Source of the DNA: Verrucomicrobiales bacterium
GTDB lineage: Bacteria; Verrucomicrobiota; Verrucomicrobiia; Verrucomicrobiales; DEV007
NCBI GenBank assembly: GCA_002726915.1
Contig: PBSY01000058.1
Coordinates: forward strand, 52,101-116,100
DNA: 64,000 nt
Direction of reading: 5' to 3'
In this document: one piece after another, positions 4,102-12,172 of the stretch
Layout of the letters: every line of letters starts with the position of its first letter
How positions within the stretch are numbered: position 1 is the stretch's first letter
Position numbers and translations under genes: made by a program
Notes under the pieces: generated by a model
Database searches by the model: none
What the model saw: only the letters and a program-made list of their open reading frames with translations
What the model was told of the DNA's origin: nothing

Positions 4102-4943
4102 GGTGGCTAGTGCTTCTTTTCATCTTCGCAGCCAAACCAACATGGTCAGAAGATCTCGTCACGCCGGTCATGACAGACGATGCGCCTGCTGCCGGCAAGC
4201 GGGTTCGCCAAGTTGCTCCTGAATATCAGGGCACGAAAGTTTATCATTCACTTTACCTTCCCTCCGGTTGGAAACCCAGTGGAAGCTATCCCGTTATTGT
4301 CGAGTATACCGGCAACGAATTTCCTCCCGGCAAGGGGAGCGGTAAAGTCAAAGATGCCAACCTCGGGTTCGGCATGAGCGGAGGCAAAGACTTCATTTGG
4401 GTGGTCATGCCCTACGTGCAGCAGGGAAAAACGGAAAATGCTGTGAAGTGGTGGGGAGATAGGAAAGCCACGGTCAATTACTGCAAAATCAACCTACCCC
4501 GCATCTGTGATCAATTCGGAGGCAATCCTGACAAAGTTATTGTTTGCGGGTTCTCACGGGGTGCCATCGGCTCCAGCTACATTGGCCTGGCCGACGATGA
4601 AATCGCCGTATTATGGGCAGGAATGTTCACACACGACCACTTTGATGGCGCCAAAACCTGGAATTACCCCGAGAGCGAACGCGAGTTCGCGCTCAAACGA
4701 CTGGCGAGACTGAAAGGCCGCTCCGTTCTTGTTTCCGGCCAACGTGGCACTGGGATTCGTGACACCTTTCTCAAGGACCATCTCGATCTGGCTGACTTCT
4801 CTTTCCTTGATGTGCCCGTTACCAAGGTCTTCGACATCCCAGATGGTCCCGTCGTCCACAGCCACACCGATCTATGGATGCATCGTAACAGCAAATATCG
4901 TGACCGGGTTCGAGCTTGGATGAAAGTGATCTTGGCTCCTTGA
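4098..4943 (+). CDS. Secreted alpha/beta hydrolase (esterase-like)
   Basis: ORF track starts at 4041, but Met at 4098 begins a clean signal peptide (MRWLVLLFIFAAKPTWS); nucleophile motif 'VCGFSRGAIGS'. Confidence 0.75.
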   Translation: MRWLVLLFIFAAKPTWSEDLVTPVMTDDAPAAGKRVRQVAPEYQGTKVYHSLYLPSGWKPSGSYPVIVEYTGNEFPPGKGSGKVKDANLGFGMSGGKDFIWVVMPYVQQGKTENAVKWWGDRKATVNYCKINLPRICDQFGGNPDKVIVCGFSRGAIGSSYIGLADDEIAVLWAGMFTHDHFDGAKTWNYPESEREFALKRLARLKGRSVLVSGQRGTGIRDTFLKDHLDLADFSFLDVPVTKVFDIPDGPVVHSHTDLWMHRNSKYRDRVRAWMKVILAP

Positions 4944-5019: not shown

Positions 5020-5670
5020 ATGAAGCTAGGGATCCTTCTCGCGGGAGTTTTTGCCGTGAATTCCATTTTTTTTCTCCAAGGGGCCGACAAGTACGATGTC
5101 CCCGAATTCGTGAAGGAACTCGAAGACCTCAGCGAAGTGATGGAGGTAGCCGCCACTTCCAACAAGGGAATCACGTTTCTATTGATGGACCCAGACTCGA
5201 CCTGAGGTCCTGCCAATGCTGCCAGTTCGGTAGCGATCGAGAAGCTCAAAGAAGACACCGAAATCATTCTCATCACGGGAATGAATCTCCACAAATCGCC
5301 CCAGGCAGTTCAGGATGCGATCTACAGCAAAGAGGCTCAGGGACCCATTCCTGTGGTGGCGGTTACAGACTCTTCCACGGAGCAGCTGGTCAGCATGGTG
5401 CCATACTTCAGCATGAAAGACGTCAATGGCTTCAACGAAACCATGGCCAGTCTCGCCTTGATACGCGGGGAAATGGCCGAAGCGAAGATCAAGAAAATTT
5501 ATGCCTTAGAAACCTGGACTAACAACAAGGGCCGGTCTATTCAGGCCACCTACGTGGCCAGCAATGAGACTGACATCACGCTGAAGCTGACGAACGGAAA
5601 ATCAGCCACATTTTCAATCTCTAATCTAAGCGAAAAGAGCAAGAGTCGCGCTAATGAGCTGGCTCAATAA
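5020..5670 (+). CDS. Thioredoxin-like + SHD1-like secreted protein with in-frame TGA at 5203-5205 (candidate selenoprotein or nonsense-interrupted gene)
   Basis: Track ORFs 4969..5205 and 5281..5670 are in the same frame; the only interruption is TGA 5203-5205. Read-through gives '...ITFLLMDPDST[TGA]GPANAASSVAIEKLKEDTEIILITG...' and a C-terminal SHD1-like module 'ALETWTNNKGRSIQATYVASNETDITLKLTNGKSATFSISNLSE'. Confidence 0.6.
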
Positions 5671-10369: not shown

Positions 10370-12172
10370 ATGAATCTCCAAGTCTCCGCGCTTCTTACTA
10401 TCTTCGCTGCCCAGTCGGCGTTCGCCCAGTTCGGCGATGAACCGCCCAAGTTCAATCCCAGCGATCCTGCGGCGCCTCAACAGGATCGGCTCACCGCGGA
10501 AATCGTAGCCGACGTGACGAGCGCAGCACCAGGAAAGCCATTCCTCGCGGCAGTAAAACTCACCCACGCTCCGCTCCATCACACTTATGGAAAAGTTCTG
10601 CCACCCGATGTAATTGGGCGTCCGACCTCGGTCACTTGGACTGTTCCCGAAGGTTGGAAGCTCGAAGAAGTTCCGTGGCCGGCAACCTACAAAGTCCTCT
10701 CTACCGAGGGAAAAATGAGCGAAGGATACGACGGGATAACTTATCTGCCTGTTAAGGTCACCCCGGCTCCGAGCGCCAGTGACTCAGGTGAAATTACAGC
10801 GCAAGTTAGTGCGCTTGTTTGTGACCCGCATAGCTGCATGCCATTCAGTGCGACACCCAGTCTCTCTATATCTCTTGCCGATACAGCAATAGCTAACCAA
10901 GTCATCCCATCCCTTGATGGAAAAGCAAAGCTCTCGGGCACGAATAAGTCGGATGACGGCGAGGGAAAGGAGGTCGATCCCGAAACCCAGCGATCCTTCC
11001 TCACCTACCTATTTTTCGCCTTCATCGGCGGACTTATTCTCAATGTCATGCCCTGCGTCTTTCCTGTGCTTGGCATCAAAATTATGGGTATCGTGGGTCA
11101 AGCAGGAGACGACCGTAAGAAGGTCATTGCTCACGGTTTCGCCTACACTGCAGGCGTCCTTCTTTCTTTCTGGGTGCTCGGTTTGGTTGTCATTCTTTTG
11201 GGCAAAGGTTGGGGATTTCAACTTCAATCACCCACTTTTGTCTTCGCCCTCTGTGCCTTCTTCCTCGTTTTTGCGCTCAATATGGCCGGACTCTTTGAAA
11301 TCGGCATCTCAGTTGTTGGCTTAGGATCAGGGCTTCAAGCCAAGCAAGGAATAGCGGGTTCCTTTTTTTCCGGACTACTTGCCACACTTGTCGCCACTCC
11401 CTGTTCTGCGCCGTTCCTTGGTGCAGCGCTCGGTGTAACGCTCTCATTACCTCCGGCTCTGGCGATGCTCGTTTTTACCTCTGTTGGCATCGGTCTTGCC
11501 TTTCCTTTTCTTCTTCTCAGTGCTTTTCCAAATTTGGTTTCCTCACTGCCAAAACCAGGCGCTTGGATGGATAGCTTAAAGCAGGGCATGTCTTTCCTCC
11601 TGTTCGGAACAGCAGCTTTTCTTGCTTGGACCCTCACTGGCCTCGTCGAAAGTCTCGACATGCTGGTCCTGCTTCTCAGCCTCGTCGTAGTGGCCATGGG
11701 TTGCTGGATCTATGGACGCTGGAATTCTCCTCTCGCCTCAGCAAAAACCAGAACAATCGTGGCGGTCATCGCCCTCCTTACGATCGCCGGAGGAATTTCC
11801 ATGGGATGGCCCAGCCAGAAAATGCGTCTTGATTGGGGCACTTGGTCTGAAACGACCGTCGAAGAACTGCGCAGATCCAAGAAGCCAGTTTACATCGACT
11901 TCACAGCAAAGTGGTGTGCCACCTGTCAGATCAATAAACGGGTTTACAAAAATGAAAGACTTCAAGCTCTCTTCAAAGAAAAAGGAGTCGAACTTCTCAT
12001 CGCAGACTGGACTAATGAAGGTCCAGCGATCCAAAAGGCGATTAACGATCTCGGCAAAGCCGCCATCCCAGTAAATGTGCTCTATATCCCTGGCGAAGAC
12101 GAACCTGTCATACTGCCGGAGCTTCTGACGGTGAAAAATGTCACTGAAGCGCTCAACCGGATCTCCGGCTAA
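10370..12172 (+). CDS. dsbD: Thiol:disulfide interchange protein DsbD-like (N-terminal DsbD domain, membrane domain, C-terminal thioredoxin domain)
   Basis: 'NVMPCVFPVLGIKIMG', 'ATPCSAPFLG', C-terminal 'DFTAKWCATCQINKRVY'; 600 aa with multiple TM segments. Confidence 0.92.
   Translation: MNLQVSALLTIFAAQSAFAQFGDEPPKFNPSDPAAPQQDRLTAEIVADVTSAAPGKPFLAAVKLTHAPLHHTYGKVLPPDVIGRPTSVTWTVPEGWKLEEVPWPATYKVLSTEGKMSEGYDGITYLPVKVTPAPSASDSGEITAQVSALVCDPHSCMPFSATPSLSISLADTAIANQVIPSLDGKAKLSGTNKSDDGEGKEVDPETQRSFLTYLFFAFIGGLILNVMPCVFPVLGIKIMGIVGQAGDDRKKVIAHGFAYTAGVLLSFWVLGLVVILLGKGWGFQLQSPTFVFALCAFFLVFALNMAGLFEIGISVVGLGSGLQAKQGIAGSFFSGLLATLVATPCSAPFLGAALGVTLSLPPALAMLVFTSVGIGLAFPFLLLSAFPNLVSSLPKPGAWMDSLKQGMSFLLFGTAAFLAWTLTGLVESLDMLVLLLSLVVVAMGCWIYGRWNSPLASAKTRTIVAVIALLTIAGGISMGWPSQKMRLDWGTWSETTVEELRRSKKPVYIDFTAKWCATCQINKRVYKNERLQALFKEKGVELLIADWTNEGPAIQKAINDLGKAAIPVNVLYIPGEDEPVILPELLTVKNVTEALNRISG

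Follow-up and report, generated by a model that had tools for sequence, protein, structure and literature searches.

Does the TGA codon that splits an otherwise continuous reading frame at 5020-5670 of this DNA mark a broken gene, or is it decoded as selenocysteine (Sec)? The window, i.e. the whole stretch of 64,000 nucleotides that was analysed, comes from the genome of a Verrucomicrobiales bacterium (G000; 3.5 Mb, 102 contigs, 92% complete). The original prediction proposed a candidate new selenoprotein, and translation confirmed its premise that the ORFs 5020-5205 and 5206-5670 share one frame divided by TGA 5203-5205 alone: on the + strand, 5020-5670 forms a single frame of 217 codons in which this TGA is the sole internal stop. 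The second ORF stands as an open frame from stop to stop, and its first ATG lies at 5281. Scanning both strands of the window for TGA codons with a long coding-like frame on either side gave two results, with 5203 at the top; the other (61107, minus strand) was rejected, being antisense to a real gene for a 474-aa membrane protein. Simple scans found no promoter- or terminator-like sites near the gene. When TGA is translated as Sec (U), the product would comprise a signal peptide, a domain with ITFLLMDPDST-U-GPANAAS and IPVVAVTD, and then a C-terminal module. The features considered here are as follows.

5020..5670, + strand: read-through coding sequence, 216 aa in the TGA=U translation, with a TAA stop at 5668-5670; orthologs share start and length.

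5020..5085, + strand: predicted Sec-type (export) signal peptide, residues 1-22, with K at residue 2 and a hydrophobic core.

5086..5427, + strand: thioredoxin-like domain, residues 23-136, from hhalign comparison with Thioredoxin_7-class proteins.

5203..5205, + strand: putative UGA codon of Sec62 in the motif DST-U-GPAN; TGA in all orthologs covering the column, Cys in CxxC/CxxA homologs.

5217..5235, + strand: putative bSECIS hairpin TGCTGCC-AGTTC-GGTAGCG, stem 5217-5223/5229-5235, loop AGUUC 5224-5228.

5350..5352, + strand: Pro111, unchanged across all 26 aligned family sequences and falling on the cis-Pro of Thioredoxin_7 proteins.

5509..5637, + strand: SHD1-like C-terminal module, residues 164-206 (PF03983).

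10370..12172, + strand: DsbD-family transmembrane disulfide reductase with a Thioredoxin_7 domain (PF02683, PF11412, PF13899).

The organism is equipped for decoding UGA as Sec, since its genome encodes the full Sec kit. The four genes that the original prediction suggested looking for are all present: SelA (E 4e-120), SelB and SelD (both with matches above cut-off) and selC, a tRNA-SeC with the anticodon tca, i.e. tRNA-Sec(UCA). They are grouped on one contig (C12) at about 76.3-89.4 kb, a span of ~13 kb. The selD gene of this genome (L040 8972-9901, G000:C12) is a selenoprotein gene too, its own in-frame TGA falling within CAG-U-ASK. Across genomes, SelA accompanies the TGA form in 18 cases out of 19, the nineteenth (G039, 83% complete) having SelB, while it exceeds the cut-off in one of the 24 genomes that carry non-TGA homologs only. 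The corresponding Fisher p value of 6e-10 is overstated, since the genomes are related, and the same holds for other counts and p values drawn from members of this family.

Conservation of the TGA itself was followed in 57 relatives. It is retained in all seven orthologs covering the site, at 49-88% identity: G011 (88%), G032 (80%, split over contigs) and G014 (75%), then G025, G029, G002 and G024 at 49-53%. Two paralog groups of G000 also carry TGA at the same column, a short form lacking the C-terminal module with the motif UGPS (group B, contig C39) and a form with this module and the motif UGPC (group C, contig C38). In addition, G014 and G032 possess a second tandem Sec copy (L050, G014:C6; L049, G032:C229) with the motif ST-U-HACRAAG and GGT as loop codon. 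A nonsense mutation of TGC or TGG, leaving the remaining frame as the remnant of a pseudogene, is what a lone stop could suggest, since such cases begin with one in-frame stop while the gene still looks normal elsewhere. Moreover, one distant relative does look frameshifted: L172 (G030:C33), a further UGPC member, has its halves in different frames, a probable frameshift or decay. We nevertheless judge this explanation highly improbable for the window gene. The same TGA persists in seven orthologs, the most distant of them at 49% identity. Moreover, dN/dS (Nei-Gojobori) amounts to 0.036 against G011 and 0.041 against G014 upstream of the TGA, and to 0.20 and 0.13, respectively, downstream of it. 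Groups B and C behave similarly, with purifying selection on both sides. Such low values on both sides are not expected of a decaying frame. The hairpin downstream of the TGA, described below, covaries as well, and its loop constraint is confined to TGA forms.

If the codon specifies Sec, its column could be expected to hold Cys in other homologs, as the original prediction had proposed to verify. A search of 388 genomes of the phylum with a profile of the domain (A2) recovered homologs with and without TGA, and the alignment agrees for most of them: 35 members have Sec, 16 have Cys and 7 have neither. Non-TGA homologs thus mostly display TGC or TGT at this column, in motifs such as CPLC, CPKC, CHHC, CPLA and CGLA, and a minority has neither Cys nor Sec. 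In the family tree, six Sec/non-Sec changes are needed, against a mean of 18.5 after shuffling, and at least two of them are forced by strongly supported branches. The window's group and group B form a single Sec-only clade; deeper joins are unsure because of the few columns and long branches. Two loci of this wider family deserve mention. The first (L058 1757-2449, G030:C31), with the motif SPK-U-GN-U-GPA, has a second in-frame TGA three codons after the first. This UxxU double-Sec form apparently relies on a single hairpin for both, located 27 nt downstream of one TGA and 18 nt downstream of the other. The second (L052/L153, G016:C180) is a tandem trio in which a Sec member (UGPC) and a Cys member (CHHC) accompany one that has neither (D..K), so that natural Sec and Cys variants occur next to each other.

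The identity of the homologous residue also bears on the alternative that the stop is simply read through, or that UGA is reassigned to another amino acid, e.g. Trp or Gly. UGA is indeed reassigned in some bacterial lineages. Here, ordinary genes terminate with TGA (4941-4943 in the window; G000b), all components of the Sec kit are encoded, and most non-TGA members carry Cys at the homologous position, and neither Trp nor Gly, which makes this alternative hardly credible. A sequencing or assembly error at 5203-5205, conceivable in a 102-contig draft, has a negligible chance given that TGA stands at the same codon in separate assemblies of other species as well as in two paralog groups of the same genome; the two alternatives that the original prediction had itself raised, nonsense mutation and base-call error, can hence be set aside.

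The hairpin TGCTGCC-AGTTC-GGTAGCG at 5217-5235, with its loop at 18 nt, was part of the original prediction and is present as described. According to the published consensus, a bSECIS has an apical loop of 3-9 nt and a stem of 4-16 bp, a G at loop position 1 or 2 that mostly precedes a G or U, a UGA-to-loop distance of 16-37 nt and a minimum free energy of -7.5 kcal/mol or lower (PMC13188914, Fig. 2A). The window hairpin fits all of these, with a 5-nt loop, a stem of 6-7 bp, the GU dinucleotide, a loop AGUUC beginning 18 nt past the UGA and -8.1 kcal/mol for the core 5218-5223/5229-5234. Taken alone it is only moderately unusual, since an equally stable bSECIS-like hairpin arose in 6 of 200 sequences in which the peptide was recoded synonymously, and the case rests on the family. 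In the members that were folded, the loop lies 18-22 nt after the UGA (the second UGA for the double form). The 6-bp stem is paired at 93.2% over 22 distinct sequences, against at most 59% when it is slid, and four of its pairs are changed on both sides. Its covariation reaches 0.406, compared to 0.194 (sd 0.033) in shuffles, none of 500 being as high. In some members of groups B and C the upper stem alone amounts to -3.8 to -4.8 kcal/mol, weaker than the published limit of -7.5. The loop itself is carried by an NGT codon in 35/35 TGA members, at codon 7 in 32 and at codon 8 in three, whatever the residue encoded: Ser (AGT), Cys (TGT), Arg (CGT) or Gly (GGT). Among non-TGA members, NGT occurs there in one out of 30, and this exception lies in tandem with a Sec form. 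For comparison, AGT represents 13.6% of serine codons in the long genes of the window. This constraint on the loop codon is the strongest evidence for a putative SECIS element. The hairpin is conserved across the family, its stem showing compensatory changes and its loop GU being invariant.

Sec machinery, TGA conservation, the Sec/Cys column and hairpin covariation converge, and we consider it very probable that codon 5203-5205 specifies Sec and that the gene encodes a selenoprotein. There is strong comparative evidence that what appears to be a stop-broken gene is an intact gene for a presumed exported selenoprotein. Decoding of the UGA at 5203-5205 as Sec would be carried out by SelB and tRNA-Sec, with the bSECIS hairpin at 5217-5235 as the guiding signal.

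What kind of protein would this be? The signal peptide has small residues at its cleavage site, which we place by eye after ..LQGA, and orthologs are laid out alike. For the following domain, hhalign of the family against Thioredoxin_7-class proteins of the same bacterial group yielded 97.2% probability and E 3.5e-11 over 92 columns, while reversed and shuffled controls remained at or below 2.5%. In this profile comparison the Sec column falls on the first Cys of WCxxC, with the cis-Pro also in register, and the TGA thus occupies a thioredoxin-type redox site, in agreement with the original prediction. Sec62 takes the first position of the CxxC-type site and Ala the second. The fold assignment rests on profiles and motifs, since the AlphaFold model from the single sequence without alignment (pLDDT 35) is unusable; on these grounds the domain is a predicted thioredoxin fold. 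Invariant or near-invariant residues are U62, G63, P64, S69, A44, F53 and P111. The conservation of S69 may be explained in part by its codon being the SECIS loop. For the C-terminal module, the proposed SHD1 kinship stands in part. The window module is below the Pfam cut-off for SHD1 (PF03983, E 0.087), whereas the homologous module in one relative (L026) passes it with E 3.6e-5, and we therefore term the former SHD1-like. Finally, Cys is absent from the mature window protein and likewise from its orthologs once mature; G025 has one, located in the signal peptide.

This last feature is central to the possible mechanism. In the exported protein, Sec would take the place of the nucleophilic first Cys of a thioredoxin fold, with Ala in the second position. 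Because no Cys is available in the mature chain, Sec62 could not be resolved intramolecularly. Acting extracytoplasmically as a lone selenol, it would attack an oxidised substrate, with a disulfide as the likeliest candidate, before being regenerated by an outside dithiol system, either DsbD-type or a UGPC paralog. We regard such lone-selenol action, with recycling from outside and no resolving Cys of its own, as plausible, a little short of probable. The DsbD-family gene, whose product is a candidate electron donor, lies about 4.7 kb downstream, and a similar proximity is seen in the two closest relatives that have the region. A UGPC paralog is present in the same genome. Since the gene neighbourhoods of relatives revealed no conserved operon partner for the window's subfamily (A), whose neighbours differ between near and distant species, we infer both substrate and reductant.

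Alternatively, Sec62 could act as a 1-Sec peroxidase of GPx/Prx type instead of a thiol-disulfide-type reductase. The chain has no resolving Cys, as in 1-Cys peroxidases, and export would suit a role against outside oxidants. Yet UGPC in the nearest paralogs and CPLC/CPKC in homologs correspond to the layout of disulfide oxidoreductases, and the window protein has no Prx or GPx Pfam matches, so that we hold the peroxidase function to be rather unlikely. It is quite improbable that the selenolate binds or traffics a metal such as copper or mercury, or serves a haem-protein partner, with no redox turnover. CxxC thioredoxin-like proteins do function in metal and cytochrome assembly. Subfamily B moreover adjoins a conserved protein with a haem-binding-type motif, CMNCH: in three species (L161 6689-10025, L162, L163), group B lies between this secreted protein and a PQQ-type propeller protein. 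This neighbour is however not found near subfamily A, and apart from the Sec site no metal-binding motif is present.

The protein was also compared to known families. The window protein had no match over cut-off in Pfam, in NCBIfam (June 2026 release, which holds many selenoprotein models) or in PDB, where the profile search gave one designed binder at E 0.15 that was dismissed. No such family is listed in the 2026 catalogue of 119 families (PMC13188914), and the nine families added by deep-Sep differ from it (PMC12013277). A back-translated TGY query found no match in named genomes or viral contigs, and the 28 matches of the TGA pattern in named genomes, all in unrelated taxa, were judged by taxonomy to be due to chance. 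In the literature outside subscription journals, we found no paper with the motif or with selenoproteins of this bacterial group. Thus we propose that this is a new family, thioredoxin-fold selenoproteins themselves being a known kind.

Sec-containing thioredoxin (PF00085) and thiol:disulfide interchange selenoproteins (PF13098), both UxxC (PMC13188914, Table 1), are alike in fold and in the replacement of the first active-site Cys by Sec, and the UGPC paralogs of the family share their UxxC layout. The window protein, in contrast, matches neither model, carries UGPA in a Cys-free mature chain and has a signal peptide and an SHD1-like C-terminal module. The Trx7/PDZ selenoprotein (NF041199, CxxU) is likewise related to Thioredoxin_7, but its Sec is in second position and it has a PDZ domain; the window family gives no NF041199 match. 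Thioredoxin_7/DsbD C-terminal domain proteins (PF13899) are the remote relatives found by hhalign, with common Cys and cis-Pro columns; they differ by a WCxxC with Cys, by having no SHD1-like module and by about 9% sequence identity to the window family. Some of the UGSC-, UGC- and UxxS/UxxG selenoproteins (e.g. NF041046, rhodanese forms) also have Sec with no CxxC resolving Cys, but with other domains and motifs, and none of their models matches the family. Three further Thioredoxin_7 proteins with in-frame TGA were encountered: L204 (G004:C55) with R-U-ES-U-VDC, L206 (G006:C148) with PG-U-VGC and L205 (G007:C75) with CIP-U. Given its CxxU, the last may belong with the known Trx7/PDZ selenoproteins.

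These observations would extend the known prokaryotic selenoproteome by a well-supported family whose genes get split or truncated by gene callers, in a lineage that goes unmentioned in the reviews consulted. More broadly, but tentatively, they may point to a whole superfamily of exported thioredoxin-like selenoproteins, so far unrecognised, expanded in these bacteria and forming a selenium-based extracytoplasmic electron-transfer chain. It would span UGPA and UGPS forms with no active-site partner Cys, UGPC forms and UxxU double-Sec forms. If this is true, the Cys-free forms would act extracytoplasmically through a lone selenol, and UGPC paralogs or DsbD would serve as their reductants. With UGPA, UGPS, UGPC, CxxC, CxxA and UxxU on one scaffold, this natural series offers a test of the choice of selenium over sulfur, as well as of how a selenoprotein with no Cys undergoes recycling in the extracytoplasmic space.
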